Below are positions 11,673 through 31,026 of a stretch of 34,451 bases of DNA, piece by piece. The DNA comes from Sphingobacteriales bacterium. GTDB taxonomy: Bacteria; Bacteroidota; Bacteroidia; Sphingobacteriales; Sphingobacteriaceae. Made by a program: the position numbers and the translations under genes. Every line of letters starts with the position of its first letter. Position 1 is the first letter of the stretch. The notes beneath the pieces were generated by a model. The model saw only the letters and a list, made by a program, of their open reading frames with translations, was not told where the DNA came from and did no database searches. The DNA lies in assembly GCA_015654985.1 (NCBI GenBank), contig JAATFW010000029.1:1-34451 (forward strand), given 5' to 3'.

Positions 11673-11677
11673 ACCGG

Positions 11678-11708
11678 TTTTTATACCTTTTTAATCAATT
11701 TTTATACT
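11678..11708 (+). promoter_or_regulatory. Direct-repeat operator ahead of the SusC/SusD arm
   Basis: TTTTTATACC (11678-11687) and TTTTTATACT (11699-11708) are 21 bp apart, with a weaker TTTTTAATCA between them, all preceded by ACCGG. The same arrangement occurs on the minus strand at 30913-30943 before the GH3 gene. Two helical turns between repeats suits an AraC-type dimer such as the hybrid regulator encoded at the right end. Binding is inferred. Confidence 0.65.
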
Positions 11709-11730
11709 GGCCTTGAAGTAAATTTGTTGA

Positions 11731-11748
11731 AATGCCAACGATGGCATT
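11731..11748. promoter_or_regulatory. 18-bp inverted repeat shared by both arms
   Basis: AATGCCA-ACGA-TGGCATT is a perfect 7-bp dyad with a 4-bp centre. An identical 18-mer lies on the minus strand at 30871-30888. Both are downstream of the 21-bp direct repeats (22 and 24 bp). From its distance to the direct repeats it may overlap the core promoter, or form a stem-loop at the 5' end of each transcript. Confidence 0.7.
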
Positions 11749-11815
11749 AGAAAGGAAAATAATCATGTTAACCAATTAACTCTGACTGATACACAAAAAT
11801 AAACAAGGAAAGCAT

Positions 11816-11898
11816 TGACAGGCCATTACATTATCCATTAATAAGGATACCCTGAATGGGCAAGAATAGCATGACGGCTGTCAGTTGAAACTTCAACT
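11816..11898 (+). other. Possible structured leader of the SusC/SusD transcript
   Basis: TGACAG-(g)-CC (11816-11824) can pair with GG-CTGTCA (11876-11883), enclosing a TATCC/GGATA hairpin (11832-11849) and a short CCC/GGG hairpin (11850-11860), a three-way-junction layout. Just after it, AGTTGAA-AC-TTCAACT (11883-11898) is a perfect dyad that shares its first base with the outer stem. I recognise no known riboswitch class. The remaining leader to 12113 (AT-rich, about 215 bp) shows only a 21-codon open frame from ATG 11930, which I do not support as a gene. Confidence 0.3.
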
Positions 11899-12113
11899 CA
11901 ATTAATCAAATTAAAAAACTAATCAACTTTATGAGGAAAGTATTATACAAAATCCCAATGCCGGTCCTGTTTGAATGCAGTGACCTACATTCTTAATGGA
12001 CTTTCAATACCATTTCAACAGTAAGTTCTATACAGAGAAAATTAACTGATATCAGTATGGACCTTCAATAATATATTTTAAAATATAATTATTTAACTAA
12101 TAAATCCTTTATT

Positions 12114-15100
12114 ATGAAACCAAAAAGAGGAAAAACGAAGAGACGGCTGCTTCTGTTTTTCACATTTTTACTAATCACTATCTTCAGAGCATATGCTCAG
12201 GACATTACAATAAAAGGTAATGTAAAAGACACCGGAGGAAAGCCGGTTAACGGCGCCACAATTCAGGTACAGGGAAATGCAACCGTTGGTACTATTTCAG
12301 ACCAGGACGGGAATTTCTCCCTTTCAGTGCCTAAAGACACAAAGCAGTTAATAGTAAATTACCTTGGGCTGCAGTGGCAGTTGGTAAACATCATTGCAGG
12401 GCAACCGCTCAAAATTGTCCTGCAGCAGGATACCAAAAATCTCGATGAAGTAGTTGTGATCGGGTACCAGACAATGAAACGGAGAGACCTTACGGGAGCT
12501 GTATCATCCGTTAGCGGAAAAGTTATCGCGGCCACACCTGTTGCCAACGCGGCACAGGCATTACAGGGGAAACTTCCGGGAGTAAGTGTAATGTCCCAGG
12601 ACGGGCGTCCCGATGCATCTGTTTCTATCCGTGTACGTGGCGGAAGCTCCATCTCACAAAGCAACGAGCCTCTGATCCTGGTCGACGGAGCCAGTGTGGG
12701 TTCTTTAAGCGACATTCCTGCCGACCAGATAGAAAGCATTGATGTATTAAAGGACGCCTCATCCACTGCCATCTATGGGGCACGCGGTGCTAACGGAGTA
12801 ATCCTCGTCACCACAAAAAGTGCAAAAGAAGGAAAGATAATAACCTCTTACAACGGTTATAGTAAGTTCAATACACCCGCCAAGTATCTGGAAGCCATGA
12901 ACCCATACGATTATCTTAAATATGTATGGGCAAATGCGGCAGCAAATGGCGAGGCTTATCAAACACCCTTCGAGAAATTATATGGTATAGGTGCTTACAC
13001 AGGTAATAACACAGGCGGGATCGAAAGCTATCGTAATGTGCCCGCCTATGACATTCAAAGAGATGTTTATAACAGTTCATTTTCACATAATCATGATCTT
13101 TCTATATCCGGAGGTACCAGCAAAACAAAGGTCTTTTTTTCCTCAAACTTCATAGATGAGCAGGGAATGAAACTTAATTCTTATTTTAAAAGAGGTAATG
13201 CATCCCTCAAGGTTAATCAGAAACTGTCCGACAATCTTGATGTAAACGTAGATGCCCGTTATACAGATGTCCACCAATTGGGAGATGAAGGTATCACAAG
13301 TGGCAGCGGCTCTTTACTTTCTTCTTCTTATAAATTCCGTCCAATTGCCACATCAGATATTTTAGGCGACTTAACTGCATTGAGAGAAGGAAATATGGAA
13401 CAGTATGGAAAAAATTCGACGTGGGATACCTATAGCTCGTTAAGCCGCATTAAAGATTACGATCCGCTTTCAATAGGTCAGAGTATACGCGGCATATTTT
13501 CTTTGAACTGGAAAGTCAAAGGATTGACTTACCATACTGATCTGATTTTGAACAGGGGATGGAATCAAACCAAAACCTGGGCGGGAGCCATATACAATAA
13601 TTATCTTGATGATGCCACCGGAGAAAAGCTTTATGCAGGCTCTGTTGACTATCAAAAGTCGGATAGCTGGGGGCTCCGCTGGACAAATACATTGAACTAC
13701 GACATCACTTTTTCAGAGATACACCGGTTAAATGTGCTGGCAGGTCATGAAATTTCTAACTCAGGCGGAAGTAATATGAGAATAACCGCCAATCACTTCC
13801 CGTCAAATTTCACCAAAGAAAATGCTTTTGCCATGATCGACCAGTATGACCGGGCAATAGGAACCAGTTCTTTTTCGTCGGACATAAGCACACCAAGCCG
13901 TATCATCTCGTACTTCGGCAGGGCGAACTACACCTTACTCGACCGGTATTTGTTTACCCTTACTTTCCGGGCCGACGGTTCCTCCAGGTTCGCTCCCGAT
14001 CACCGCTGGGGATATTTTCCTGCAGCGGCTGCCGCATGGCGATTGTCGGAAGAGCCTTTCCTGAAAGACGTAAGCTGGGTGAATAACCTGAAACTTCGTT
14101 TATCTTACGGCGAAGTAGGCAACGACGGCATCAGCTCCAACCTTTGGTCTCAATTGTGGACGTCAGAACCCGACAGGAGATGGCAGTATGTACTTAATAA
14201 CCAATATCAAACCTCTTATGACCTGGCCGCCTCGCAGATGGCTAATTCCGACCTGAAATGGGAGACTTCTGTCACACGCAATATTGGTACTGATTTTGAA
14301 TTTTTCAACAGGCAAATATGGGGAACGGTCGATTTATACAAAAACACCACCAAAGACCTGCTCATGCTCACAAGTATCCCCGGAATTACCGGTTTTACCT
14401 CAACCTATGCTAATATCGGGCAAATAAGCAATAAGGGGATAGAAATATCACTTTCAGGTGTAATCTTTAAAAACAGCAACTGGAATATAACAGCAGGCGC
14501 TAATATTAACTTTAATAAAGGGAATGTTGACAAACTGGCCGACGACGTAACGGGTCTTTACGGTACAAGCTGGGCAAGCAGCAGTACATATCCTACCAAC
14601 GACTATCTTCTTACAACAGGCAGCCCCGTAGGCCTGGTCAGAGGATTGATATATGACGGCTTCTATACTACCGGCGATTTCAATTACGCAAACGGTGTCT
14701 ATACATTGAAGGAAGGCATTTCCGATGTGGGCAGTTTTATTGGCGCTGTTCACGGAATCGGTACAAACGAACGGCCTTCCGGACAGATAGCATACCCGGG
14801 TATTATTAAATACAAAGACCTGGATGGAAACGGCTTGATCGATGAAAACGATCTCAGTGTTATCGGCAACACAAACCCTGCCCATACAGGCGGCTTCAAC
14901 CTCAGCGCTACTTTTAAGAATATCGATTTCAGCGCTTACTTCAACTGGAGTTATGGTAATGACATTTACAATGTCAATAAGCTTGCGTCTTTATACGGAT
15001 ACAAAGAAGCCGGAGTTTATGAAAATAAACTTTCCCTGCTTAACGATTCGTATAAAATATATGATGTTGTCGACGGTCAGCTTGTTCGCCTTAGTACACC

Positions 15101-15446
15101 CGATCAATTACAGGCTGCAAATACAAATGCCACATTGCCGCTGGCGTACAATGAGAATGGGGTAACCTCATCAATGGGCATTGAAGACGGTTCATATCTC
15201 CGTTTAAATACACTTACGCTGGGATACACGTTCCCTAAACAATTGGTTAAGAAAGCAGGAATAAATAATCTGCGCATTTATGGATGCGCTTATAACCTCC
15301 TCACTATAAGCGGTTATTCGGGGCTCGATCCCGAAGTGAATACAAATACGTCGCAAAATCACGCCGCCTACCCTACTACAGGTTTAGACTGGGGTACTTA
15401 TCCCCGCGCACGGTCGTTTGTCTTCGGTTTAAATCTTAATTTCTAA
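12114..15446 (+). CDS. SusC-family TonB-dependent glycan transporter
   Basis: 1,110 residues. A basic signal peptide (about 1-29, ending RAYAQ) leads into a carboxypeptidase-D regulatory-like domain (about 31-115), the TonB-box-like LDEVVVIGYQT and a plug (about 125-235) with RVRGGSSISQSNEPLILVDG and DVLKDASSTAIYGARGANG, then a large barrel ending in an aromatic C-terminal strand (FVFGLNLNF). SusC proteins import oligosaccharides through the outer membrane with the SusD lid encoded 20 bp downstream. The start codon is preceded by a leader of more than 350 nt carrying the direct-repeat and inverted-repeat elements, so control by the hybrid regulator in the window is likely. No hydrolase gene accompanies this pair on the plus strand; the enzymes are on the converging arm. 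Confidence 0.95.
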   Translation: MKPKRGKTKRRLLLFFTFLLITIFRAYAQDITIKGNVKDTGGKPVNGATIQVQGNATVGTISDQDGNFSLSVPKDTKQLIVNYLGLQWQLVNIIAGQPLKIVLQQDTKNLDEVVVIGYQTMKRRDLTGAVSSVSGKVIAATPVANAAQALQGKLPGVSVMSQDGRPDASVSIRVRGGSSISQSNEPLILVDGASVGSLSDIPADQIESIDVLKDASSTAIYGARGANGVILVTTKSAKEGKIITSYNGYSKFNTPAKYLEAMNPYDYLKYVWANAAANGEAYQTPFEKLYGIGAYTGNNTGGIESYRNVPAYDIQRDVYNSSFSHNHDLSISGGTSKTKVFFSSNFIDEQGMKLNSYFKRGNASLKVNQKLSDNLDVNVDARYTDVHQLGDEGITSGSGSLLSSSYKFRPIATSDILGDLTALREGNMEQYGKNSTWDTYSSLSRIKDYDPLSIGQSIRGIFSLNWKVKGLTYHTDLILNRGWNQTKTWAGAIYNNYLDDATGEKLYAGSVDYQKSDSWGLRWTNTLNYDITFSEIHRLNVLAGHEISNSGGSNMRITANHFPSNFTKENAFAMIDQYDRAIGTSSFSSDISTPSRIISYFGRANYTLLDRYLFTLTFRADGSSRFAPDHRWGYFPAAAAAWRLSEEPFLKDVSWVNNLKLRLSYGEVGNDGISSNLWSQLWTSEPDRRWQYVLNNQYQTSYDLAASQMANSDLKWETSVTRNIGTDFEFFNRQIWGTVDLYKNTTKDLLMLTSIPGITGFTSTYANIGQISNKGIEISLSGVIFKNSNWNITAGANINFNKGNVDKLADDVTGLYGTSWASSSTYPTNDYLLTTGSPVGLVRGLIYDGFYTTGDFNYANGVYTLKEGISDVGSFIGAVHGIGTNERPSGQIAYPGIIKYKDLDGNGLIDENDLSVIGNTNPAHTGGFNLSATFKNIDFSAYFNWSYGNDIYNVNKLASLYGYKEAGVYENKLSLLNDSYKIYDVVDGQLVRLSTPDQLQAANTNATLPLAYNENGVTSSMGIEDGSYLRLNTLTLGYTFPKQLVKKAGINNLRIYGCAYNLLTISGYSGLDPEVNTNTSQNHAAYPTTGLDWGTYPRARSFVFGLNLNF

Positions 15447-15466
15447 CGATTAATAGTGTAACGATC

Positions 15467-17512
15467 ATGAAAAAAATAACAAATTATATAATCGTCACGG
15501 CACTGTGTGTTCTTTTGACTCAATGCAAAGACTATCTCGAAACTTCTTCGCCATCCAATACAGATGATACCTTTGTAACATCCACCACATCCGAAACTTT
15601 TAAAGCATTATCCTGGTGCTACGCCAACTATCGCCAAAATTGTGCGATATCACTGTATAGCTGGAATGATCCGGTCGGATCAGATGCCGAAATGTATCCC
15701 GAAGCGACTTCTACAAATAATCTCAATGCGATCATGCAGTCGGAAGCCATAACTGTTGACGCCCTTAAGGATCCGTTTAATAACCTTTACAGTAATATTG
15801 CCCGTGCCGCCAAACTAGCTGATATCATTGCAACAAAATCAGAATATCAGTCGGACGTCGCTTCAGGTACTGTTTCTGACTGGACTCAGCTTTACGGAGA
15901 AGCAATTACAATAAAGGCGTTTTGCTATTTTAACCTCGTAAAGCATTATGGCGATGTTCCTTATGGTTATGAAAACACCTATGTAGAAGATTATACCTTG
16001 ACTTCACGCTTTGATATTTATGATAATTTAATTGCTTCGCTGAAACAGGTTGAACCCCTCATGTATAAGATAGGAGAAGGAAGTATAACAGCCGAACGCT
16101 TCTCCAGAACGTTTGCAGATGCATTGATCGGCGAAATAGCCCTTTATGCCGGGGGATACCAGACAATCCGCACAGATGTTGCCGGCCTGTACGGAACCGT
16201 GCAATTCACCACAAAAGGCAAAGAAGAATATGGTTGCAAGTACGCACGCCGCAGCGATTATCTCGAATATTACAAAATTGCTGAGCAGTATTTACAGACT
16301 GCCATTGATAATAAGGGCAGCGTCAATCTGATCACTTCCGATGGAAGAAGCTATGCAAACAATCCGTTTCAGCGCCATTTTCAGTATATGGAAGATCTGC
16401 AGATAAGCCCGGAATCATTGTTTGAAATCGGTAATATACAGGGCGGACAAAGCGGCCAGACGACAACCAGCGATTACCCTTATAATTTCGGTCGCCCGTC
16501 AAACGGCGGTAGTTCTAATGCTGCTCCTTGTAAAGTCTTTGCTTCTATTCGTGCTATTCCGACGTTCTATTATGGTGAATATGAAGATGGCGACAAACGT
16601 AGAGATGTCAGTGTGACCGCTACCGGAAGTACCGGGGATGGGAATGAGGCTATGCTGGATTTTAAGCCCGGATCCAAACTTGACGGTGGAATTTCACTTA
16701 ATAAGTGGGACGATAACCGTATGAACCCTCCTTATTCTGCAGCTCAAAGACAGTCGGGCATTAACTACCCTGTTTTGAGAATGGCAGATGTGATCCTGAT
16801 GCTGGCAGAGGTCAAGGCCGAATTAGGAGAGAACGGAGATGCCATCACCCTCGTTAACCAGATTCGGGAAAGAGCTTTCGGCAATTCCAATCATAATATA
16901 AGCGGGCTGTCAGGCGAAGACTTGAAAGAAGCCATATTACAGGAAAGGAAACTGGAGCTTTTTGGCGAGGGAACACGCCGCTGGGATCTGATACGTTCGG
17001 GGAAATTTTCGGAAAAGGCCGTTGCTGTCCGCAATGAAATGACGGCGATGATCAACGACCTTCGTTCCCGCGGCTACCACATGTTTGCCAATGGCAATGT
17101 GATATCAAATTATATTCTTACAAAAAGCGTCAAATTAGATAATCCTCTTACTTATGATGCTCCAAATACAAGCGATCCGGTTCTATACCCCGGATGGAGA
17201 GGGCAATATAACTGGAGTACTTCCGATGTAAGCAGTAAGGTAAAAGGCACGAACCATAATGTAGCAATCAAAGGCCTGTTCAGTTATATCGATCCTAACG
17301 GAACAGAAGCCGCTGCTTTAAAAGCAGAAGGTTATACTGTAACCAATTGGGCGATAGATATTGTTAACAATGCAACCAGTTATGACAGGAACATTCTCTC
17401 CGGAATAAAAACAACCGAAGATCCACCCAGATATTTCTTTCCGATTCCTTTCGATACGATCAACAAATCGAAGGGAAAGGTAACAAACGGCTACGGATTA
17501 GCTCAACAATAA
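15467..17512 (+). CDS. SusD/RagB-family surface glycan-binding lipoprotein
   Basis: 681 residues with a lipoprotein signal (LLTQC, Cys20), so it sits on the cell surface as the lid of the upstream SusC channel. The family pattern is present: CKDYLETSSPS after the lipobox, TPR-like helices in the first half (EAITIKAFCYFNLVKHYGDV), and the C-terminal NYPVLRMADVILMLAEVKAE and ERKLELFGEGTRRWDLIRSGK motifs. It is longer than the usual 500-600 residues because of an extended C-terminal region after the ERKLE helix. The ligand is unknown. A strong hairpin follows 23 bp after the stop codon. Confidence 0.93.
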   Translation: MKKITNYIIVTALCVLLTQCKDYLETSSPSNTDDTFVTSTTSETFKALSWCYANYRQNCAISLYSWNDPVGSDAEMYPEATSTNNLNAIMQSEAITVDALKDPFNNLYSNIARAAKLADIIATKSEYQSDVASGTVSDWTQLYGEAITIKAFCYFNLVKHYGDVPYGYENTYVEDYTLTSRFDIYDNLIASLKQVEPLMYKIGEGSITAERFSRTFADALIGEIALYAGGYQTIRTDVAGLYGTVQFTTKGKEEYGCKYARRSDYLEYYKIAEQYLQTAIDNKGSVNLITSDGRSYANNPFQRHFQYMEDLQISPESLFEIGNIQGGQSGQTTTSDYPYNFGRPSNGGSSNAAPCKVFASIRAIPTFYYGEYEDGDKRRDVSVTATGSTGDGNEAMLDFKPGSKLDGGISLNKWDDNRMNPPYSAAQRQSGINYPVLRMADVILMLAEVKAELGENGDAITLVNQIRERAFGNSNHNISGLSGEDLKEAILQERKLELFGEGTRRWDLIRSGKFSEKAVAVRNEMTAMINDLRSRGYHMFANGNVISNYILTKSVKLDNPLTYDAPNTSDPVLYPGWRGQYNWSTSDVSSKVKGTNHNVAIKGLFSYIDPNGTEAAALKAEGYTVTNWAIDIVNNATSYDRNILSGIKTTEDPPRYFFPIPFDTINKSKGKVTNGYGLAQQ

Positions 17513-17535
17513 AAGACTCAACATTGATTTTAATT

Positions 17536-17568
17536 AAAGGCCGTTCTCCGAAAAAGGGAATGGCCTTT
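17536..17568 (+). terminator. Intrinsic terminator of the plus-strand SusC/SusD operon
   Basis: AAAGGCCGTTCTC pairs with GGGAATGGCCTTT-side bases to give a 13-bp stem with two G-U pairs and a purine-rich loop. It lies 23 bp after the SusD stop. The T run is short (three T inside the stem end), so termination is likely but not certain. Confidence 0.75.
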
Positions 17569-17592
17569 ATGATAACCACTAACGCTTTTTAG

Positions 17593-17724: not shown

Positions 17725-17782
17725 GCTTACTTCTCAGAAAAAATTGTACTACAGGAAGTAACGATTACAGTTTAGACTATTT

Positions 17783-17822: not shown

Positions 17823-17893
17823 AATTGTCCAATGCTCCAAACCCCTGCCTTTGAATATTGTGTTTTGTGATGCCTCGCTCAGATTATTAAATT

Positions 17894-20800
17894 TTACAAA
17901 TCAGCATTTTGGTCTTTTTCTGAATACCGAAGTATGTTAAGTAATAGCTGCTGCCCGACAATATTAGCCTTATTAAGTTGAGAAGAGTTAAAAGTACTCA
18001 TCGAAGCATTTTCCCCGTCGCCTTCAGCCCTTTTAACAGCTTTCAGATCATGGATGCATGAAAATATGTCCAAAGCACACAGAATAATTTTCCCCCGGCC
18101 ATGAGGTACTATGCTTAATGCAGAGTAAACTTCCTGTTTATGGTCTGATACACATCCTACTACAGTCTCGCCATTAAACATCCTCAACCCTATTCTGCTC
18201 TTATTATAAGTAGCAAAACACTGGTATTCCCAGTTAAAGACACACGACTGGGGCAGGCCCTTAAATAATTCATGCTCTTTAACAAAATAATTACCACCAT
18301 ACCAAGAGGTACCAAGATCTTTCATACCGCGATAATCCACTACTTCTTTTTTTGCCAGATACGACGCCCATACATCGGCGTTGTTTGCTATAATCAGTGT
18401 ATTGCCTTCATTTACCCACTCCAGGATATCTGTTACCAGGGGATTCCCGGATTGAGGAGGTGTAAAAGAACCGATCAGAAGATATTTTCCCTGAGGTCTT
18501 CCGGATTTGAAATCTTTAAATGAGCGTATGCCAACTGTTTTAAGAAAGTTGCTGATCACTCCACTGCTGTCAGCTACCATACCGTCCACGGGAATACCTG
18601 TTGTATTAAGCTTTACCGCATACATTTTATCCTCTCCGGAAGCAGCTACTTTTCCATTGCTTATCAATTGCACTGTTACAGAAGTATAACCTTCACTCCG
18701 GGGAATTACCGGAAGTCCTGCAAATAACAGCTCGCCGTAAGTTGTACCTCCTGTAACATTCACCGGGATGTTCCTGTTAAAGATCACCTGCCCTTCTGCA
18801 TCGTTTACCTTTACTTCGAGAGTATAATTTCCATGGAGGTCTACCTCATTTACCAGATGAAAATCAACCATGGAGGTATCGCCTACACCCAAAACCTTCC
18901 GGTTCATTTTTACCGCTATAAAAAGGGGCCGGTTATATCTTGAAATGAGAGAAGGATCGCCTTTAAGATTCCGGTAATTGTCTACCACTCCTGAGTGATT
19001 CTCCAGTTTCATGCTTTCCCAGCCGTTCACTGCATAACCATCAATAATATCATTGATGCGGATATTCTCGATAGCCCGCCCCTGATAATAAAAAGAAACA
19101 TTACCCATTTTTCGTGTCAGAGAATCAACATTCGGGAACGCTTTGGTAAAACCATTATTCCTGAGGAAAGTATCATAAGCGTCGTACCATTTCAGATAAG
19201 TATCGCTTTCCCAGCCTATGTCTTTTCCGATTTTCAGTATTTCATCCCTGATGAGCTGAAGCCGCGGAGGAGTTCCAATGGCCCCCTCTTCTCCATAGTA
19301 GATAATTTCATCTTTATGACCGGTATATTTTAAATAGTCTTTGGGCCCCTTGTATAAATTATCGTGATAAACCCCCGGCCCCCCGGCGTGATGCTGGTCA
19401 AACCATCCATAATCGTAAAATTTTGTATCATAAGGCAATAGATGAAGTTTAAAACGGGCATCAGGACCTATTTTGATCGGTCCGTTTGACGAATTGTAAG
19501 TCATTATCCTCGTTTCATCAAGCTTGTGGCCTGCAAGCATCTCCTGCCTGTCCTGATCCTGGGGCTCCGCGCCCCGCTCGTTATGAAGATTATAGATCAC
19601 CAGGGAGGGATGGCTACGGTCCCGGCGGATCATCCTGAACAATTTCTCATTCCGTACAGCAAAGTAGAAATTGGCCTGCATTTTTCCCGCAGGGTCATTT
19701 ACATTGAACCGGTCGGCAGGATATTGGTTACCTCCCGGTTCTTCGAAGTAAAGTAAGCCCAGTTCGTCCGCATAGTTCAAAACGTTTGATTGCCCGATAG
19801 TCCGGTGAAAATTGAGCATATTAAGACCGATCTTTTTCGCCGATTCAATTTGCTTACGCGCCAGTTCGTCAGACGGCGCAATTCCATTGACCGGCCAGAA
19901 GCCCCATGATATAGAGGTACGGATCACGATACGCTTGCCATTCAGATAGAACTGTTGATCTCCGTTTACGTCCCTGACCTCAAACCATCTGAACCCAAAC
20001 CGCTGCTTATATTCGTCACTGCTTTTGTCGGCACCCTTCCAAACAGCAGTAAGTGTATACAGGTTTGGGTTTTCAACGCTCCATAATTGGGCATGATCAA
20101 GGGCGATTGTAAATTCAGAGGTATTAGTTCCCTTTTGAAGCTGGTTTACCGGGTAACTTTTTTCAAAAACTACGTTGCCCCCGTCCTTTACTTCATTTAC
20201 CTGAAGCAACAGGATTCCGGCAACAGGTTTTCCCAGCAAATTGGCAGTAGTAATCTCCACATCTACCTCGTTTACCCTGGGTTTATTTTTAACAAAGATA
20301 TCGTCAATAAAAACTTTATCCGTAGCTACCAGGTTTACTTTACCTGTGATTCCTCCGAATCCATGCGAAGGCTGTGTCCGGTAATCACCCCACATAAAAT
20401 TCTGAGAATCTCTCCAGTCGAAGTTACCATTGGGATCGGTAATCCTTACAGCTACTTCATTTTCCTTCCCGAAACTGACGGCATTGGTAATATCCGTTTC
20501 AAAAGGCGTACTGTTTACCAGATCATACCCTACCAGTTTCCTGTTTACAAATACTTCAGCTCTGAACCTGACACTTTCAAACTGAAGGGTCAGCCTCTTC
20601 CCTTTAAGGTTACTGGGAATATTTATTCGGGTTGTAAACCACGATACCCCCAGGTAATTGCCAGACACTCCAAAAGGATTTCCATTATCCCCCCAATAGT
20701 ACTGCTCTACCGTGGCAGGAAGATGAACCTCTTTGCCCCTGGATTGCTGAAGCACATCCCAGCCACCAGTTGGAATATTAACAGGCAATCGGGCAAGATT

Positions 20801-21031: not shown

Positions 21032-21074
21032 TATCATGATTCGTTTATACCAACATCTCCATTTTAGCATGCTG

Positions 21075-21106
21075 AAAAAAGAGACTGCTCCTATCGGCAG
21101 CCTCTT
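21075..21106 (-). terminator. Terminator-like hairpin upstream of the GH2 gene
   Basis: On the minus strand AAGAG-G-CTGC (21106-21097) pairs with GCAG-T-CTCTT (21088-21079) around one mismatch, followed by a T run (21080-21075). It lies 12 bp after the beta-helix gene and 44 bp before the GH2 start, so it may reduce rather than stop GH2 transcription. Confidence 0.5.
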
Positions 21107-21117
21107 CTTTTGCAGCA

Positions 21118-22752
21118 TTAATAAGTCCACCTCGGATCGCCAATTGCCGTCCCTACATTACTCACAGTGCGTAGCACCGATTCTGCCGGCAAAGTAAAGT
21201 CTGTAGTAGCTGATGTCCATCCCAAATTAATCGACTGATTGCCGATCTGAGTGGTGGCCGAAGGAAATGTGAGGGCCACTCCGGATGCATTATTAAAATT
21301 GAAAACATTATTATTGTTAAAGATCAGCGTAGAGCCGGCTCCATTTGCCCTGATTGCGGCATTCTGAACGCTTTGTGCAGGCATAGGGACATTCCCAATA
21401 ATACTGTTCTTTATATTCACCGTGATTGGATTATCTCCGACATCCACTAACACATATTTATTTTGTGAACCAAAATTATTAAAAGTGCAATAATCAAACG
21501 TAACGACCGGTACCTTAGGCAATACGGTAGAGGAAGCAAACAACGCCGAACCAAACGTATAAAATGTAGATTTAGTAACCGTCATTGTGTTAAACTGCAA
21601 TTTACTCAGGTGAAAGCAGATATAACTCGAAGATGCCCCGATATCATATATTACACAATTTTTAATAGCAATTTCGTCCATCGAATAATCACCGGCATTT
21701 GAGCCGCGATCTCCTCTGAAAAAACTTGTTGATGCTCCGTGAATAATACAGTTGTTAATATTTACCTTAGTAAATGCAGCGATTTCTGAATTTGATACGG
21801 CCCCTGTAAGGTTGATAAAATATGAACCACCTGGTCCGGTGCCATCGCATTCTACATCTGAGAGAATGAGCCCTGCACCGGTTCCGCTTAAAGTAAATTC
21901 TTTAAAAAGGATTTTGGTATCAGAAGGATTACCCGACGTTGATTTAATGGTCAGCGTTTTTTTCAGGAAAGAGAACCCGGCTCCACTTGCATTATAAGTA
22001 CCAGGATTTAAACCTATTACCGCATTATCTGCCGCAGCAGTTATAGCAGCAGCTAAATCATCACCTGGATTGAGGATTACACTGTATACTGTAGCGACTG
22101 GGGTGCTGAATGACAGGATCCCCTTGCTCTTAGCATCAAGAAACAGTTCCGCGGTATAATTTACACCAGCGTTCAATCCTGTAATCACTTTCACTCCTGA
22201 AGAAAGCTCCGATGAAGAAAGCGGGTAATCCACGGATGCCCCACCGTCAGGTTTCAGTACAATTTTTGTTAACTCAGGATTCGGCTTCCACCTTAAAGTT
22301 ATAGAAGTTTCCTTAACTTCCACATCCCTGATTGGCAGGAATAATTGTTCACCAGTTATAGAAAAGCCGGGGCTAATTGCCCATTTTGACTCAGGTTGAT
22401 CGCCGTAGGCATTCGCCTTAATTCTTACGTAGTATTTCTTGCGGATCTGTAACTTGTCGTCAGTTACCGTAACACCAGTTGTATCCAGTGTTAAAGCAAA
22501 TTCTGAGCTTGCAAAAGTAGTATCCTGCGAGAACTCGGCTGTGTAGGTTAATTGTAAACCAGAGCTCAGCAACGGCGTTTCCCAGGTAATCTTAGCACTG
22601 GTCTCTCCGGTTTTTATAGATAAACCGCTTGGTTTGAATATGCGGGGAGCCACTAAGCCACCGTTAGGATCTTTTTTGCAAGAACCTGATAAACAGCTTG
22701 CTATTACAAAAAAGAGCAAGCCGTAAACATCTAATTTCTTAATCAGTTTCAT
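21118..22752 (-). CDS. Fn3/beta-helix surface lipoprotein (DUF4957/DUF5123-like)
   Basis: 544 residues with a lipoprotein signal (SGSC, Cys25). Residues about 35-225 form two fibronectin type III-like domains (SAKITWETPLLSSG; TSITLRWKPNPE). Residues about 235-530 begin LNPGDDLAAAITAAADNAVIGLNPGTY, typical of a right-handed parallel beta-helix as in pectinases, and contain repeated short strands (INNCIIHGAST, IKNCVIYDIG, FDYCTFNNFG, IKNSIIGNV). The end, TAIGDPRWTY, is characteristic of DUF5123-type proteins, which are common in polysaccharide utilisation loci, several of them for pectins. No lyase Asp/Lys/Arg centre can be assigned. It may bind glycan at the surface in place of a SusE/SusF protein or be an uncharacterised lyase. 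It lies 11 bp after SusD. Confidence 0.8.
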   Translation of the reverse strand: MKLIKKLDVYGLLFFVIASCLSGSCKKDPNGGLVAPRIFKPSGLSIKTGETSAKITWETPLLSSGLQLTYTAEFSQDTTFASSEFALTLDTTGVTVTDDKLQIRKKYYVRIKANAYGDQPESKWAISPGFSITGEQLFLPIRDVEVKETSITLRWKPNPELTKIVLKPDGGASVDYPLSSSELSSGVKVITGLNAGVNYTAELFLDAKSKGILSFSTPVATVYSVILNPGDDLAAAITAAADNAVIGLNPGTYNASGAGFSFLKKTLTIKSTSGNPSDTKILFKEFTLSGTGAGLILSDVECDGTGPGGSYFINLTGAVSNSEIAAFTKVNINNCIIHGASTSFFRGDRGSNAGDYSMDEIAIKNCVIYDIGASSSYICFHLSKLQFNTMTVTKSTFYTFGSALFASSTVLPKVPVVTFDYCTFNNFGSQNKYVLVDVGDNPITVNIKNSIIGNVPMPAQSVQNAAIRANGAGSTLIFNNNNVFNFNNASGVALTFPSATTQIGNQSINLGWTSATTDFTLPAESVLRTVSNVGTAIGDPRWTY

Positions 22753-22763
22753 TTCTTCTGGAA

Positions 22764-24590
22764 TTAGTATCCGTAATTTTGCACTGTCTTTGTATTCAGG
22801 TTAAGGGTTTCATAGTAGAAAGGAAGTACTTCCTTTTTGTTCGGTTCAAAATAGGTGGCGAAACCTGTTGCGCTGCCTGTAATGCCATCTTCATTTAGGG
22901 ATGCCCGCCAATTTTTAGTCGTATATCCGGTTGGGGCCTTTGAGTCTCCGAGCCCGGGCTGAAATAAAGTGGCAGAGGGCGAACCACCGTAAGTATCAAG
23001 CGTCCTGAATTCCTCTCCCGAAGTTACCAAATTATAAGCCGCAGGCTTTGAATAAACATAGCTTGGCAAATTGGCATAAACCCCTTCTCCGTTCATCAAT
23101 TGGCGCAGCTTGGTTCGCGTCTCGTCAAACTTACTTGCCATCAGGTTCCAGCGGATTAAATCATATTTCCGGATAGCTTCTCCCCCGAATTCTAATAAAC
23201 GTTCCTTTACAATAGCCTCAAAAAAGCCGGTATAATCGGTAGGAATAGCCGGTATCCGGCTTTCATAGCCCACAAACGCCCTTTTTCTGATCTCTAGTAA
23301 CGCATCTTGTGCTTCTGCCGACGGCCCGTTATTCAGTTCATTATCAGCTTCAGCAAACATGAGTAAAATATCGGCAAAACGTAATACAGGCCAGTTTACC
23401 GCGAGGTTCTGAGTGGTCCCTACAATGGAAGTCCACGACCTTCTGAACTTAGCGTCGGTCATGTTATTCAGCGTATTCATTACCTTCTGACTATTTGCAT
23501 CAATTTCATAAGAGCCAACAGTAACATCTCTCCGGCAGTCGCCTAACTGATCAAACTCATAAAAATAGGTTGCTATTGCCAGTATACCACCTCCGCCGCC
23601 GCCAAAACGCGAAGCCGAATTAATACGTATCCCGTTATAGTAACCCAGCTTAGTATCGGTCCGCGCCCCCGCTCCATAAGCACCCACCTCGAACATCAGC
23701 TCGTTCTTAGGATCGCTTCTTGTACTCGAGTGAAGTGATTTAAAAATATTTTCATATACAGGATTAAGGTCGTGCTGATCACGGCGTGCCATCACATCCT
23801 TACATTCATCATAGGCAATCTGATAATATTTCTTGTAGTCATTGCTTCGAATCATAGTATGAGATTCCTTATCCATCATATATCCGCCCCTGAACAATGC
23901 GATCCGCGCTCTCAGGCCCTTTATTGCACCTTTGCTCCAACGGGTATCCGGGAAGCCTGTCTCACTTAGCCACGGCACCAAATCCTCAGCATCCTTCAAG
24001 TCATCCAGCAAACTGTCAAGTACTGCTGTACCGGCCGTAACAGGAACATCAAGTACGGTTGTATTAGAAGACGGCTGCCACTGAGCAACAACACTGCCCC
24101 AGTTTCTGACAAGTACAAAGTAAAAGTACGCCCTTAAGGTGAGCGCTTCGCCAAGGTATTGTCCCATCAAAGCTTTACCGGGCGATCCTTCCTGATAAAG
24201 TGAAGATGCCCTTATTCCCGAAATACAAAGATTAGCACGTTCTATCCCGGAATAAAGCTGGTTGAATCCATTTTCCAGTTCACCGTTCTGGCTGCTGGCG
24301 CCATACATACTAATACCTCTCCGGTCTTGCGAACTATAACTGCCTGAAGTTTTAAAATCATCGGCCATCATTGCCCAAATAGTACCCTCCTTCGTTGTTC
24401 CGTTATCTCCGCACAACTGGTTATATATGCCTATAATAGCACTGTTTGTATTAGAGGCACTGGAATAGGTAGCGTCCAGCGATACGGTAGATGGAGATTC
24501 AACATCCAGGTAATTTTTGCAGGCACTAGCTCCCGTAATGAGGCTGATTGCAAGCATGCCTGCTAATATTTTAGTTATTTGATTTTTCAT
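22764..24590 (-). CDS. SusD/RagB-family surface glycan-binding lipoprotein
   Basis: 608 residues from the ATG at 24588-24590. An in-frame ATG at 24758 lies deep within the SusC gene and is rejected; the chosen start gives a lipoprotein signal (ITGASAC, Cys24) followed by KNYLDVESPST, the usual SusD beginning. The TPR-like helices (LGEALTLRAYFYFVLVRNWG), the NWPVLRFADILLMFAEADNEL motif and the KERLLEFGGEAIRKYDLIRWN motif are all present. Together with the SusC encoded 16 bp upstream it would form the second glycan import complex of the locus. Gly-rich FGGGGGGILAI near residue 315 is a notable but probably surface-loop feature. Confidence 0.93.
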   Translation of the reverse strand: MKNQITKILAGMLAISLITGASACKNYLDVESPSTVSLDATYSSASNTNSAIIGIYNQLCGDNGTTKEGTIWAMMADDFKTSGSYSSQDRRGISMYGASSQNGELENGFNQLYSGIERANLCISGIRASSLYQEGSPGKALMGQYLGEALTLRAYFYFVLVRNWGSVVAQWQPSSNTTVLDVPVTAGTAVLDSLLDDLKDAEDLVPWLSETGFPDTRWSKGAIKGLRARIALFRGGYMMDKESHTMIRSNDYKKYYQIAYDECKDVMARRDQHDLNPVYENIFKSLHSSTRSDPKNELMFEVGAYGAGARTDTKLGYYNGIRINSASRFGGGGGGILAIATYFYEFDQLGDCRRDVTVGSYEIDANSQKVMNTLNNMTDAKFRRSWTSIVGTTQNLAVNWPVLRFADILLMFAEADNELNNGPSAEAQDALLEIRKRAFVGYESRIPAIPTDYTGFFEAIVKERLLEFGGEAIRKYDLIRWNLMASKFDETRTKLRQLMNGEGVYANLPSYVYSKPAAYNLVTSGEEFRTLDTYGGSPSATLFQPGLGDSKAPTGYTTKNWRASLNEDGITGSATGFATYFEPNKKEVLPFYYETLNLNTKTVQNYGY

Positions 24591-24606
24591 ATCATTTGGC
24601 TTAACA

Positions 24607-27600
24607 TTAAAAACTAAGATCCAGGCCGGCCAGAATATAGCGGCTTCGGGGATACGCTGAATAATCAACGCCAGGAGTAAGCGGCCCCCTTCTTGTATTT
24701 GCTTCAGGATCGTAGCCGGAATACTTTGTAAAAGTATAGAGATTATTAACGGTTCCATATATTCTCAAACGGGAGAACACTTTGGTCCGGTTAAGAAAGT
24801 TCTGCGGAAGGGAATATCCAATGGTAATGTTAGAAAGTCTCAGGAAGGAACCGTCTTCAATTTCATAAGATGTCAAAATATATTGTCCGGTCGGAGGCGT
24901 CCAGAAAGATGTATTTGCATTCATTTCCCGTAACCTGTCAGGGTCTGTTACCTTTACCCCGTTTTCATCGAACCATTTCCACCGGTCCTTTACAACGGAA
25001 AGCATATTGTTGTCTTTGTACAGGTATTGTCCGGTAAATTCGCTTTTGTTAGCATTATACGTCTTTTTACCCAAAGCAAAATTCATAAAAATGGATGCAT
25101 CAAAATTTTTGTATCTCAACTGATTGTTAAGACCTCCGGCGAACTTAGGCGTGGCTTCACCAAGTACCTTTCTGTCATCCGTAGTAAGAAGATAACTTTC
25201 TGTATTTGTAAGCTTCTTCAGTTTCATATCTCCCGGTTGCGGGTTCTTTCCACCCAGAGCAACTTCTCTCGCATTAGGGATTCCATCTTTTAGTGTGTAA
25301 GAATACGTGTCGCTTGAAGAATTATAGGCAACATCAAAATCATCCAGCTCATACCGGCCGTCAGAAACGTAACCATAGAACTGCCCTACAGGGCCTCCAA
25401 CCTGAACAATAAAATCATCGCCGTTAATTCCGCCGGAAGCTGTCAGATAACTGGTTTTAGGAGATCCGAAGGGATCCAGGCCAAGGCTGACAATTCTGTT
25501 TTTATTATGGGAAATATTAAAGTTTATTGAATAGTTGAAGTTTTTATTGCTGACAACAAGACCATTCAATTGCAGTTCAATCCCCTTATTCGACGTTTTC
25601 CCGATATTTTCCTGCCGCTCCTGATATCCCGATGTTCCTGGCATCTTCGACAACAACAGTAAATCTTTGGTGTTGTTATTATAAACATCTACTGTTGCGT
25701 TCAACCGTCCTTTGAATAATTCTAAGTCGAAGCCCAAATTCCTGGAAATGGTGGTCTCCCATTTGATATTTGGATTGGCAAATCCATTTGGAGCAAATCC
25801 AGGTGTAACCGACTCGCCCGTTGCATAGCCATAATTACCGCCGGCAACATACAGGGTTTTCCACTTATCCACTCCAATCCGGTTATTACCACCAGCCCCA
25901 TAGCTGGCCCTCAGCTTCAGGTTATTAATCCAATCCAGATCAAGTTTTTTAAAGAAATCTTCCTGGCTGATTCTCCAGGCAACTTGTCCTGAAGGAAACA
26001 TTGCATTACGGTTTTCCGGGGCGAATAAAGAAGAAGCATCGTTTCGAAGAATAAAAGATCCAAGGTATTTATCTTTATAAGAATAAGATACCCGGCCAAA
26101 AAAGGAGAATAGCTTAGTCGTCGATTCAGAAGTTGTTGCAGGGTCCTGGATAGCTCCATTAGGCGGAGTAGCCTTTTGTATTCCCGCAATTGCCTGCTCC
26201 GGCGTTAAGTCTACAGGCAGCCATTTTATCGTATTTCCATAGTTCAGGCTTCTGCTTTGGTTGACTTCCTCCCCGGCGAGCAGAGTTATCTTATGTTCTT
26301 TTGCTATGTTGAAATCATATGAAATGGTATTACTGTTCGTAATGGTTAACGTTGAGATCGTTCCGATACTTACAACGGGCAGATTGGCATTCTGCCGTGC
26401 AACTGAAGTAATGGAGCTGCTGTACTGGTCTGTTCTTCGTTCTGTATTTGTTATACCAAATACCGTTCTCACTGTAAGGCCCCTGGCAAGAGTATACTGG
26501 GCGTTCGCGCCGGTAATGATCTGATTCGTATAATCATTTTTCGTTTCAGCATAGGCACCCAGAACCGGACTAATCAGGTTAGTCAGATTAGCATAATCAG
26601 GATCGAATTCATCAACAGCAGGATCCATTCCGAAATCCATGTAAGGCCGGTACCGCACCGCATTCCTCAGCCTGTTATTACTCTGAGAGACGGTGTTTGA
26701 GGTACCTACTCCCAATATATCCTGCCTGCTATAACGGGCATTGAATCCAAAGCGAAACTTATCTGTGGCATTGTTATCATAACGAAAGGCGGCAAAAGTA
26801 CGCTTAGCCCCTGAGTTCAGCATAATCCCGTCTTCCTTGTAATTATTAACGGTGAAATTGAAGTTTGAGGATTTGTCACCGCCGTTTATATTCAAATTCT
26901 CTGTATGACCAAATGCAGAGCGGCCAAATACAAGGTCCTGCCAGTCAGAAAAAGGGATATTCTTATAAATATCCAGATCTTCAAAAGTGCCATACCTGTC
27001 AGAAAAAGCATCCTTCGTCTGCTGGTCGGTTCCATTGTTATATAGCTGATACTGGTATATAACATAGTCATAAGGCCTCAATACATCGAGATGATTAGTG
27101 ATCTTCCTGGCGCCGGCATAGCTGCTGAAAGAAACATTGGTTTTACCATCCCTTCCGCCGCCTTTTGTTGTGATAAGAACGACACCGTTGGCGCCCCGAG
27201 CCCCGTAAATTGCAGTTGAAGCGATATCCTTGAGCACATCTATAGACTGAATTTCCTGCGGCGATATCACAGATAATGCATTCTCTACCTGGATACCATC
27301 TACAATGTAAAGCGGCGAGTTGTCCTGAGTTATAGAACCGCCTCCCCTGACGCGGATGTCGATATCGGCCCCTGGCCGGCCTTCTGAAGTCGTAACAGAA
27401 ACACCGGCAAGCTTTCCGGCAAGCGCTTCGGCTGCAGTAGCAACGGGGAAATCCTTTATATCCTTTGCACCTACCGATGATACGGCTCCTGTTACAGCAT
27501 TCTTACTAACAGTTGCATACCCGATGTTCACAACACTTACCTCTTCCAGTAAGGTAGCATCCGCAGTTATTAAAGTAACAACAATGTCCTTCTGACCGGT

Positions 27601-27855
27601 AATTACAATTTCCTTTGGGTTAAAACCAATATACCTTACTAAAAGAGTAACACCGCCTGACTGCGGAACGTTAATACGGAATTTTCCGTTCACATCAGTG
27701 GAACCTCCGGTCTTGGCCCCCTTGATAGTCACTGTAGCACCGATCACCGGTTCGCCACCGCTTTCGACAACAGTACCGGTCAATTCTCTTGTCTGCGCCC
27801 ACGAGTTAATACAAAACAGGGTCAGAATGAGAGTTTTAAGTAAGATTTTTCTCAT
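24607..27855 (-). CDS. SusC-family TonB-dependent glycan transporter
   Basis: 1,082 residues. A signal peptide (1-20, ending SWAQ) is followed by a carboxypeptidase-D regulatory-like domain (about 22-100), the TonB-box-like LEEVSVVNIGYATVSK and a plug (about 115-225) with RVRGGGSITQDNSPLYIVDG and DVLKDIASTAIYGARGANG, then the barrel ending SRYILAGLDLSF. It is only moderately similar to the plus-strand SusC, so the two pairs look like separate lineages and not a recent duplication. The gene is 288 bp downstream of GH3 on the same strand; I find no terminator or clear promoter in that gap, so readthrough from GH3 is likely. Confidence 0.95.
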   Translation of the reverse strand: MRKILLKTLILTLFCINSWAQTRELTGTVVESGGEPVIGATVTIKGAKTGGSTDVNGKFRINVPQSGGVTLLVRYIGFNPKEIVITGQKDIVVTLITADATLLEEVSVVNIGYATVSKNAVTGAVSSVGAKDIKDFPVATAAEALAGKLAGVSVTTSEGRPGADIDIRVRGGGSITQDNSPLYIVDGIQVENALSVISPQEIQSIDVLKDIASTAIYGARGANGVVLITTKGGGRDGKTNVSFSSYAGARKITNHLDVLRPYDYVIYQYQLYNNGTDQQTKDAFSDRYGTFEDLDIYKNIPFSDWQDLVFGRSAFGHTENLNINGGDKSSNFNFTVNNYKEDGIMLNSGAKRTFAAFRYDNNATDKFRFGFNARYSRQDILGVGTSNTVSQSNNRLRNAVRYRPYMDFGMDPAVDEFDPDYANLTNLISPVLGAYAETKNDYTNQIITGANAQYTLARGLTVRTVFGITNTERRTDQYSSSITSVARQNANLPVVSIGTISTLTITNSNTISYDFNIAKEHKITLLAGEEVNQSRSLNYGNTIKWLPVDLTPEQAIAGIQKATPPNGAIQDPATTSESTTKLFSFFGRVSYSYKDKYLGSFILRNDASSLFAPENRNAMFPSGQVAWRISQEDFFKKLDLDWINNLKLRASYGAGGNNRIGVDKWKTLYVAGGNYGYATGESVTPGFAPNGFANPNIKWETTISRNLGFDLELFKGRLNATVDVYNNNTKDLLLLSKMPGTSGYQERQENIGKTSNKGIELQLNGLVVSNKNFNYSINFNISHNKNRIVSLGLDPFGSPKTSYLTASGGINGDDFIVQVGGPVGQFYGYVSDGRYELDDFDVAYNSSSDTYSYTLKDGIPNAREVALGGKNPQPGDMKLKKLTNTESYLLTTDDRKVLGEATPKFAGGLNNQLRYKNFDASIFMNFALGKKTYNANKSEFTGQYLYKDNNMLSVVKDRWKWFDENGVKVTDPDRLREMNANTSFWTPPTGQYILTSYEIEDGSFLRLSNITIGYSLPQNFLNRTKVFSRLRIYGTVNNLYTFTKYSGYDPEANTRRGPLTPGVDYSAYPRSRYILAGLDLSF

Positions 27856-28143
27856 AATCGATTAGTTAATTTCAAATTCCGGGTGATTGGGAAATCCCAC
27901 GGTGTTGAATCTGTGATTTTATAATTAGCCTTTTAATTTTGAAATAAAGCCGGAGCCTTGTCTGCCCGATTGAAAGCTTGACGAATATCCCCGTCTGTCG
28001 CAATAAAACTTCTTATGGAATTCTTATCCGGTATATTCCTCGCATTGCCTTTAAATAATTATAGTTAAACATTTTTAGATCCATTTGCTGATAAATTTTA
28101 TGTGCCCGGCATGCAGAATCAGCACGGCTAATCCGTCACATAC

Positions 28144-30774
28144 CTATTGAATAATTATCTCTTTCGTTAATACATTGCCGCTTGTTTTGTTAGGTTCATC
28201 AGGCTGGCTTCCTCCGACGCTTATTTGCACCTTTCCCGAAAGAGGGATACGTATTCCATTCTGATCGACGTATGTCAAATCCTCAGGTGATAAGTTAAAT
28301 GTAGCTACCTGGCTCTCTGAAGGGCTCAAACCTATGCGCTTAAAACACTTCAACGCTTTAAGCGGTCCCTTAACCGATCTGTTGAGACTGGATACATATA
28401 TCTGAACCACTTCATCCCCGGTAACTTTGCCGGTATTCGTAATCCGTACAGACATCGTGATGCCCATGCCTTTCTGAACAGCAGGCGGAATGTCAAACTG
28501 GTCATAATGAAAGGATGTATAACTTAACCCAAAGCCGAAGCCATAGAGTGGCTTGCCCTTAAAGTACCGGTATGTCCTGTTATTCATGGAATAATCAGTA
28601 AATGGAGGCAGATCATTGTCGCTGCGGTAAAAAGTAACAGGCAAACGGCCTGCTGGGTTGTAGTCGCCAAAGAGAATATCAGCCACGGCAGTACCGGCAG
28701 CCTGACCACCATACCAGGCGTTAAGAATAGCAGGAATATGTTCAGATTCCCAGGGAGTAGCAATGGCACTTCCTGTCATCATCACAAAAACTACTGGTTT
28801 TCCCGAGGATGCCAGGGCCTTCATGAGTTCGGTCTGCACAGCGGGAAGAAGGATAGAAGTACGGTCTCCTCCGTTGAAACCGGGATCGTCCACCTTCATT
28901 GCTTCCCCTTCCAGTTGAGGTGAAATTCCTCCGGCAAATATGAACAAGTCGGCATCTGCGTGCTTTTTCACCAGAGCATTAAAATCCGTAACAACATAGT
29001 TCCCTGCGCTAAACCTTATATCAGCCTTACCCTCTCCCTGCCAATATTCTATAACTATTTGATATACAGAATCTTTCTTTTCGTTTAACTGGTACACTTT
29101 TAATCCCCGTGTCTTTTTAGTCCATGCCGATAACACCTCTTTATCATTAATGATGAGGCGATAACCCTCATCTGCTTCGAGTTCAAAAGAAACAGGCCCT
29201 GTAGACGATGCCCTGAAATTAGTTGTATAACGGGCAGAAAAGTTAGCTGCAGGAACATTCCCCGAAACAGACTGGCCCTCCTGCCAGGAATTTTCCACTT
29301 TACTTTCGTATCTGGTAAATACAGGTTTGCCGCTCAGCTCAGTATTATCGAAATACTCGGCTTTGAACCCCTGCCTCCCGTCATAAGAATATTGATTGCT
29401 CAGATCATTGTAAAGCAGTAAACTTTTATTGGTATAGTTAACCGCCTTTTCATAAACTACCTTCGTATTAGCACCAACTTTATCTTTAATCCCGGCAAGT
29501 ACCGTGGAGAGCCTTGACGGGTTACCATTATAGTTGCCAAGAATGGAAACCGGGTTATCGGCATTCGGCCCAAGAACGACAATCTTTTTAAGATCCTTTT
29601 TCAAAGGCAGCAGGTTGTTTTCATTTTTAAGAAGGACCATTGATTCACGGGCCATTTTAAGAGCATGCTTCCGATGGGCTTCACATTCAAGCACAGAATC
29701 AGGAGTCTGAGCATATTTAACCATGTTTACCGGGTCGAACATACCGAGCCTGAAACGCACCATAAATAGCCTTCTCACAGATATATCAATCTGTTTTTCA
29801 GCAATTTTCCCATCTCTTACAGCAGCGACGAGAGCTTTATAGGCATCTGTTCCGCAATCAAGATCGGTACCATGGAAAACGGCGTCAGCCGATGCCGCTT
29901 CGGCATCCGGATGAGTCTTATGATTTTTAAAAAAGTCGTCTATTGCCCAGCAGTCGGAAGTAACATATCCGGTGAACTTCCATTGATTCCGCAGAATATC
30001 TGTCATAAGTATATCATTGGCACAGCAAGGCTGAGTTCTGAAGGCATTATAGGCACACATCACTCCCGCCACTTTCGAATCAATCACAAGCTTTCGAAAA
30101 GCAGGCAGGTACGTATCCCAGAGATCATGTGCACTTACGTCAACATCAAATTTATGACGCAATGGCTCCGGTCCGCTGTGAACTGCATAGTGTTTAGCGC
30201 AGGCAGCTGCCTTTAAATATTTCGGATCATCACCCTGCAGCCCCTTAACAAAAACATCTCCGAGAACAGATGTAAGGTAAGGATCTTCTCCATAGGTCTC
30301 CTGTCCTCTTCCCCACCTGGGATCGCGGAATATATTGATATTAGGGGTCCAGTATGTAAGTCCGGCGTACTTCTCATTCGTCTTTCCGGCAGCTACCCCC
30401 CTGTTATAAACTGCCCTGCCTTCAGAAGCCGAATAATCAGCCATGATTCCTAGGGCCTCCGGGTCAAAAGCTGCTGCCATCGCTATCGCCTGGGGATAAA
30501 CGGTTACTTTATATGGAGTTCTGGCTACCCCGTGTAAGGTTTCATTCCACCAGTCATAGGCAGGAATTCCAAGCCTTGGAATTGCCGGAGAAGAATTAAG
30601 CATCTGAGATACTTTTTCTTCAAGGGTCAGGCGACTAACCAGGTCTTCCACTCTCCTTTCAAATGGCTGTTGGTAATCCTGAAAAAGGTATGGTTTTATC
30701 TGTGCTTTAGTTGTATTGAAAATTATTATACAACCAATTAGAATATGCAAAATTTTGAAATTTTTTATCCTCAT
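28144..30774 (-). CDS. Glycoside hydrolase family 3 enzyme with PA14 insert, beta-xylosidase-like
   Basis: 876 residues with a signal peptide (about 1-24). The N-terminal GH3 barrel carries YDWWNETLHGVA, a form common in beta-xylosidase/arabinofuranosidase members, and the nucleophile Asp274 in GYVTSDCWAIDDF. The C-terminal alpha/beta domain begins near residue 385 (LLPLKKDLKKIVVLGPNAD) and is interrupted by a PA14 domain (about 465-600, AEYFDN to ADIRFSAGNY). It resumes with the LEGE motif (621-624, the probable acid/base region) and finishes with a Fn3-like domain (SVRITNTGKVTGDEVVQIYVS). It should cleave terminal beta-linked sugars from oligosaccharides in the periplasm or at the surface. 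It is the first structural gene after the regulator and is preceded by the direct-repeat/inverted-repeat element at 30871-30943. Confidence 0.92.
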   Translation of the reverse strand: MRIKNFKILHILIGCIIIFNTTKAQIKPYLFQDYQQPFERRVEDLVSRLTLEEKVSQMLNSSPAIPRLGIPAYDWWNETLHGVARTPYKVTVYPQAIAMAAAFDPEALGIMADYSASEGRAVYNRGVAAGKTNEKYAGLTYWTPNINIFRDPRWGRGQETYGEDPYLTSVLGDVFVKGLQGDDPKYLKAAACAKHYAVHSGPEPLRHKFDVDVSAHDLWDTYLPAFRKLVIDSKVAGVMCAYNAFRTQPCCANDILMTDILRNQWKFTGYVTSDCWAIDDFFKNHKTHPDAEAASADAVFHGTDLDCGTDAYKALVAAVRDGKIAEKQIDISVRRLFMVRFRLGMFDPVNMVKYAQTPDSVLECEAHRKHALKMARESMVLLKNENNLLPLKKDLKKIVVLGPNADNPVSILGNYNGNPSRLSTVLAGIKDKVGANTKVVYEKAVNYTNKSLLLYNDLSNQYSYDGRQGFKAEYFDNTELSGKPVFTRYESKVENSWQEGQSVSGNVPAANFSARYTTNFRASSTGPVSFELEADEGYRLIINDKEVLSAWTKKTRGLKVYQLNEKKDSVYQIVIEYWQGEGKADIRFSAGNYVVTDFNALVKKHADADLFIFAGGISPQLEGEAMKVDDPGFNGGDRTSILLPAVQTELMKALASSGKPVVFVMMTGSAIATPWESEHIPAILNAWYGGQAAGTAVADILFGDYNPAGRLPVTFYRSDNDLPPFTDYSMNNRTYRYFKGKPLYGFGFGLSYTSFHYDQFDIPPAVQKGMGITMSVRITNTGKVTGDEVVQIYVSSLNRSVKGPLKALKCFKRIGLSPSESQVATFNLSPEDLTYVDQNGIRIPLSGKVQISVGGSQPDEPNKTSGNVLTKEIIIQ

Positions 30775-30870
30775 TTATTTGGTTTACTTATTACTGATAA
30801 TATCCTGCCGCCGCCTCTGTTCTGCGTGCACAGGATAAAATCAGTCCGGTTAATCAGCGTAAAAATTGAC

Positions 30871-30888
30871 AATGCCATCGTTGGCATT
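30871..30888. promoter_or_regulatory. 18-bp inverted repeat upstream of GH3, identical to the one at 11731
   Basis: AATGCCA-TCGT-TGGCATT on the plus strand is the exact reverse complement of 11731-11748. It lies about 100 bp upstream of the GH3 start and 24 bp downstream (in the minus direction) of the direct repeats. Confidence 0.7.
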
Positions 30889-30912
30889 TATTAGTAAATA
30901 TCGGCATCCTCA

Positions 30913-30943
30913 GGTTTAAAAACTGGTACAAAAGGTACAAAAA
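30913..30943 (-). promoter_or_regulatory. Direct-repeat operator ahead of the GH3-led arm
   Basis: On the minus strand TTTTTGTACC (30943-30934) and TTTTTAAACC (30922-30913) are 21 bp apart, with an additional TTTTGTACC (30933-30925) between them and ACCGG leading in. The pattern equals that at 11678-11708. No TAnnTTTG -7 box follows, which fits an activator-dependent promoter. The remainder of 30775-31026 shows nothing else. Confidence 0.65.
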
Positions 30944-31026
30944 CCGGTCGTTTTTATTAAATAAAGAAAAGTAATTAACTAAGAATAAACATCGACATAT
31001 CTTTCAAAAATAAGGTTTCAATATTT

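Follow-up and report, generated by a model that had tools for sequence, protein, structure and literature searches.

The 34,451-nt stretch analysed here (the window) is the whole of contig C182 in a 4.73-Mb assembly of 355 contigs that is 87.9% complete, from a host that is probably a member of Sphingobacteriaceae. It carries a polysaccharide utilization locus (PUL) built as two converging arms, with a hybrid two-component system regulator (HTCS), GH3, SusC1, SusD1, DUF5123 and GH2 genes on the minus strand and SusC2 and SusD2 on the plus strand, and at the head of each arm there appears to be a composite promoter responsive to two signals. We hold with good confidence that two-input control, by the HTCS as activator and a XylR-type LacI-family protein as repressor, best explains both promoters. 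The HTCS, whose gene lies at the right end, would bind as an AraC-type dimer to the direct repeats (21 bp apart) ahead of the core promoter, and would activate transcription when its periplasmic sensor detects an oligosaccharide. An inverted repeat (IR) lying over the predicted start, just past the −7 box, would be the operator of a cytoplasmic XylR-type LacI repressor (encoded beside xylBA in relatives), which would sterically prevent initiation for as long as xylose, or a product close to it, has not built up inside the cell. The cluster would thus be joined to the xylose regulon with the HTCS keeping glycan specificity, and full induction would probably require the polysaccharide chain outside the cell as well as xylose from it in the cytoplasm. 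The identity of the binding protein, its action as a repressor and not an activator, the effector, the AND-type logic and the start site are inferred here, with xylose as the releasing effector suggested only by gene context. The single regulon split over two arms that an earlier note on this DNA had proposed would follow from this reading of the direct repeats and the IR.

The composite element which that note described ahead of both arms is present at both places, with its coordinates and spacings as follows.

11673..11708 (+): HTCS element of site A, comprising ACCGG (11673-11677), TTTTTATACC (11678-11687), TTTTTAATCA (11688-11697) and TTTTTATACT (11699-11708)
11719..11726 (+): candidate −7 box TAAATTTG of promoter A, predicted from its fit to TAnnTTTG
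11731..11748 (+): IR copy A, AATGCCAACGATGGCATT, putative LacI-family (XylR-type) operator at the predicted +1, matrix score 23.8 bits
30913..30948 (−): HTCS element of site B, comprising ACCGG (30944-30948), TTTTTGTACC (30934-30943), CTTTTGTACC (30925-30934) and TTTTTAAACC (30913-30922)
30895..30902 (−): weak candidate −7 box GATATTTA of promoter B, predicted, 10 bp past the last repeat as in A
30871..30888 (−): IR copy B, AATGCCAACGATGGCATT, putative LacI-family (XylR-type) operator, matrix score 23.8 bits

The 18-bp IR is exact in both copies, which share a run of 19 nt, and no third exact copy occurs in the 4.73-Mb genome; an exact 18-mer repeat of any kind arose in just one of 100 random windows (first-order Markov). 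The direct repeats, TTTTTNTACC-N11-TTTTTAWACY, are likewise exact at 11678-11708 (+) and 30913-30943 (−), and a whole-genome search for the pair with up to three mismatches found no other place (0.11 expected by chance), a single TTTTTRTACC with up to two mismatches being at chance level by itself (103 found vs 91 expected). Repeat-to-IR distances are 22 nt at site A and 24 nt at site B, as had been described, and the flanks are as poorly conserved as claimed (36% and 33% identity in IR-anchored ungapped comparison), so that a recent duplication is not the origin. Both composite elements thus lie beyond chance expectation. The order of ACCGG followed by two repeats also stood, but ACCGG is itself an ACC half-site and more than two half-sites are present: ACC-like triplets at offsets 0, 12, 21 and 33 in both elements form two interleaved 21-bp pairs, and ACCGG probably belongs to the repeat array. 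The box TAAATTTG, which matches the −7 consensus TAnnTTTG (PMC7366714), begins 10 bp past the last repeat and lies 4 bp ahead of the IR and 6 bp ahead of its TGCCAACG core.

In published HTCS motifs, the two sites of a direct repeat are separated by an average of 21 bp, a spacing interpreted as dimer binding to one face of the helix (PMC3878776). The earlier assignment of the direct repeats to an AraC-type HTCS dimer accords with this published form and with the conservation of the element at orthologous promoters. At orthologous SusC1 loci of Pedobacter, Niastella, Longitalea, Pinibacter and metagenome bins (SusC identity 68–74%), CAATNNNNNAACC-like repeats 21 bp apart stand ahead of GH3 or SusC1, followed after 20–21 bp by TAnnTTTG; this arrangement precedes GH3 in L047 and L053 (L049 has a variant of it) and SusC1 in L046-L054, and the GH3 promoters of L047 and L053 retain the half-site positions 0, 12 and 33. 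The same order of repeats and then TAnnTTTG follows many HTCS genes in the family. The direct-repeat half of the element is, on this comparison of sequences, ordinary for HTCS promoters, and the window resembles described HTCS regulons (PMC3878776) in repeat form and distance, in the HTCS gene beside the cluster and in having SusC and enzyme genes as putative targets, although it differs from them in its four interleaved ACC half-sites.

Motifs of the LacI family are, almost without exception, even palindromes 16–22 nt long, and 1173 of 1303 regulators have CG at the centre of their consensus (PMC4052901); the IR fits this rule (18 nt, CG centre, eight of nine position pairs complementary). 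By inspecting upstream regions of LacI-family genes, we found IR-like sites in two relatives. One lies where a LacI gene and xylBA (xylulokinase-xylose isomerase) diverge, TATGCCAACGTTGGCGTT in G074 and ATTGCCAACGTTGGCATA in G035; the other, TATGCCAACGTTGGCACT and TGTGCAAACGTTGGCATA, respectively, stands ahead of a transaldolase-family gene (tal). The genome under study has no such site beside a LacI-family gene. A search with this xylulokinase detected xylB in 21 of 41 genomes, and a palindrome criterion applied to the xylB promoters independently of the IR sequence identified a CG-centred palindrome 43–103 bp before xylB in 14 of the 21, ten of these being of the TGC[C/A]AACG type. The xylB promoters of the five congeners (G001-G005) all have CGTTGGCA adjoining the −7 box, the sites of G001 and G005 having failed the palindrome criterion and been read by eye. 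Against an operator matrix built from 16 xylB/tal sites of relatives, the IR scored 23.8 bits, compared to 19.6–28.3 for those sites themselves (leave-one-out). Scores above 20 bits in about 650 kb of HTCS/SusC/PUL loci were confined to the two IRs and a G074 PUL promoter, and a reversed-sequence control of the scan yielded one match above 17 bits. The IR is therefore best read as a putative LacI-family operator of XylR type. Of the two explanations offered earlier for it, a second regulator at the core promoter is favoured by the match to operators of relatives' xylose genes and an RNA stem-loop is not; the same match shows that the IR is not confined to this cluster. The likeness to relatives' XylR-type regulons extends to the core (TGCCAACG/CGTTGGCA), the CG centre and the place just past the −7 box, with the difference that the window operator precedes the GH3 and SusC genes of a PUL.

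Both parts of the element recur together in G074, a genome of another genus. A strict composite pattern matched in three of 301 genomes searched and in none of the control; matches in G029 and G272 were set aside since they lie within coding sequence, leaving G074 as the informative one. After the HTCS ortholog there (50% identity) come, in order, AAACC, 21 bp on TTGAACC, then 20 bp, TAGCTTTG, 6 bp, TGCCAACGTTAGCA and SusC, so that the order of parts is shared with site A, as is the 6-bp distance from the −7 box to TGCCAACG.

Several observations weigh against this reading of the two promoters. The distance from the repeats to the −7 box is 10 bp in the window vs 20–21 bp in relatives, one helical turn closer, and the −7 box of promoter B is poor; using the other interleaved repeat pair gives 22 bp, and the 20–21 bp seen in relatives is not given as a defining feature in the publications consulted. 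The orthologous GH3 and SusC1 promoters lack the IR, and when 31 related HTCS promoters were tested strictly, just two had a LacI-type palindrome at +1 (0.1 expected). Absence of both parts at orthologous loci had been named as evidence against a shared regulon, and half of this was found: the direct repeats are present and the IR is missing from most. An operator in only two of 31 promoters indicates, as far as these sequences go, that it is an optional addition to HTCS promoters and not a constant part. Lastly, the assembly, incomplete as it is (87.9%, 355 contigs), yielded neither xylR nor xylB; since the two genes are adjacent in all five congeners, their absence points to an assembly gap more than to true loss.

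The missing xylR also leaves room for the IR to be the operator of a different LacI-family protein, for example the hexuronate-linked one on contig C276 or a dedicated local one lost with the contig end. A LacI-family gene does lie between HTCS and GH3 in the orthologous PUL of Pedobacter frigiditerrae (L047 21425-22440), and its best relative in this genome is the C276 protein (53% identical), whose gene adjoins hexuronate genes. However, the C276 gene and its orthologs have a different type of adjoining site (TTGTAACCGATTACAT; TTGCAACCGATTGCAT), for which reason we set the C276 protein aside as binder; the IR matches the xylB/tal sites rather than these, and the TGCCAACG site found beside the C276 ortholog in G074 and G035 faces the transaldolase-family gene. 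We therefore regard a non-XylR LacI protein as an unlikely owner of the operator. That the IR instead acts as RNA, its 7-bp stem and 4-nt loop stabilising or regulating mRNA from the 5′ end of both transcripts, is disfavoured and seems to us very improbable. Its place at the predicted +1 would suit such a role and 50-nt segments fold at −8.8 and −9.1 kcal/mol, but any such palindrome folds, with z-scores here of only −2.4 and −1.3; the two copies do not differ in loop or stem, no compensatory change being seen on looking for one, and what relatives conserve beside the LacI gene and xylB is an operator sequence class. Scarcely credible, finally, is an origin by duplication of a promoter cassette or from a small mobile repeat, with no second regulator involved. 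It would account for just two exact copies in one cluster, and SusC2 leaders in several relatives have an MRK.LL-type start reminiscent of SusC1, a hint of promoter capture; against it stand the dissimilar flanks, the 2-bp difference in repeat-to-IR spacing and the occurrence of IR-type sites on their own before xylB, tal and a third susC.

This third susC is preceded at 52 bp by a XylR-like site scoring 27.1 bits, AATGCCAACGTTTGCACA, in the same genome (contig C37:8598-8615; L085 3599-3616) and near a divergent HTCS gene; no clear direct repeat was seen there. The IR with up to one mismatch was absent outside this genome among 60 genomes (its own and relatives). Looser searches were discarded: a degenerate ATGCCANCGNTGGCAT gave matches in 18 of 400 family genomes, nearly all in unrelated coding sequence and uninformative alone, and matches to the IR with three mismatches in its own genome (51 vs 31 in the control) were mostly chance. 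The layout seen in the window also occurs with other LacI-like cores, namely TACAATCGATTGCA behind two distinct HTCS elements of G184, CAATCGATTGC in G202 and CCAATCGATTGCGG in Pinibacter. A promoter with LacI-type sites before SusC genes is also suggested in the genome under study by contig C20 (L089 9543-9749), where a LacI gene directly precedes a SusC/D operon and has perfect CG-centred palindromes, ACGGTACCGGTACCGT and TCGGGAACGTTCCCGA. With slightly less than even confidence, we suggest that HTCS promoters of the family have an optional slot at +1 for operators of different LacI-family monosaccharide repressors, each gating one PUL by the sugar released, the slot being gained or lost per species; it would hold the XylR-type TGCCAACG in the window and G074, and CAATCGATTG-type sites in G184 (twice), G202 and Pinibacter.

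The genes that these promoters would serve, and the regulator beside them, are arranged as follows.

31027..34332 (−): HTCS regulator with Reg_prop/Y_Y_Y sensor, HisKA, HATPase, receiver and AraC-type HTH_18
28144..30774 (−): GH3 with PA14 insert, Xyl3A-like beta-xylosidase (Pfam, NF041776), first gene of the left arm
17894..27855 (−): remainder of the left arm, with SusC1 (24607-27855), SusD1 (22764-24758), DUF5123 lipoprotein (21118-22752) and GH2 (17894-21130)
12114..17512 (+): right arm, with SusC2 (12114-15446; leader of about 365 nt ahead) and SusD2 (15467-17512)

The HTCS, with sensor, kinase, receiver and AraC-type helix-turn-helix, adjoins its putative target genes; its N-terminus is cut off at the contig end, leaving a frame of 1140 aa vs about 1450–1517 aa in relatives. 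Because the GH3 is Xyl3A-like (1049 bits against NF041776, below the curated cut-off of 1250), the cluster plausibly releases xylose. About 180 nt ahead of SusC2 lies a short leader open reading frame, MRKVLYKIPMPVLFECSDLHS (window 11931-11996, +), and several SusC2 orthologs (among L067-L073, which were examined) have an MR..-type leader frame of 14–42 aa some 210–490 nt upstream. Its resemblance to a decayed SusC1 start suggests promoter capture, or else a leader peptide. SusC2 orthologs mostly have no HTCS element, or have other LacI-like sites. In another genus (L064, L074-L078), CAACCGGTTGCA-type LacI-like sites before the gene replace the HTCS element, with some more such sites upstream (CGGCAACGTTTGCG).

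Control by two such inputs has a precedent in the arabinan PUL of Bacteroides thetaiotaomicron, for which an arabinan-responding activator and an arabinose-responding repressor were demonstrated and variations were predicted to be common (PMC5061871), and three PULs of that species are under dual HTCS/AraR control (PMC4666351). The arrangement proposed here on the strength of sequence shares with the arabinan system (HTCS BT0366 and AraR) a polymer-responsive HTCS and a cytoplasmic repressor that answers to the monosaccharide set free and also governs the monosaccharide genes (PMC5061871; PMC4666351; PMC3878776). Unlike that Bacteroides system, where AraR is of the NrtR family and responds to L-arabinose, the operator in the window is LacI-type, tied to xylose genes and placed at the predicted +1, in a probable member of Sphingobacteriaceae; the XylR of Bacteroides (BT0791) is itself of the NrtR family and not LacI (PMC3878776). 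A limited literature search found no published description of an HTCS-LacI composite promoter in this family. What would be new is thus a xylose-linked, LacI-type variant of the known pairing of HTCS and monosaccharide repressor, with its operator at +1. It would extend the rule of a polymer-sensing activator with a monomer-sensing repressor from arabinan to a xylose-linked PUL and to an unrelated repressor family, and the window offers a compact, testable promoter pair. Should the arrangement prove general, the sugar released by an uncharacterised PUL would be predictable from a match between its +1 operator and the operators that monosaccharide catabolic genes carry.

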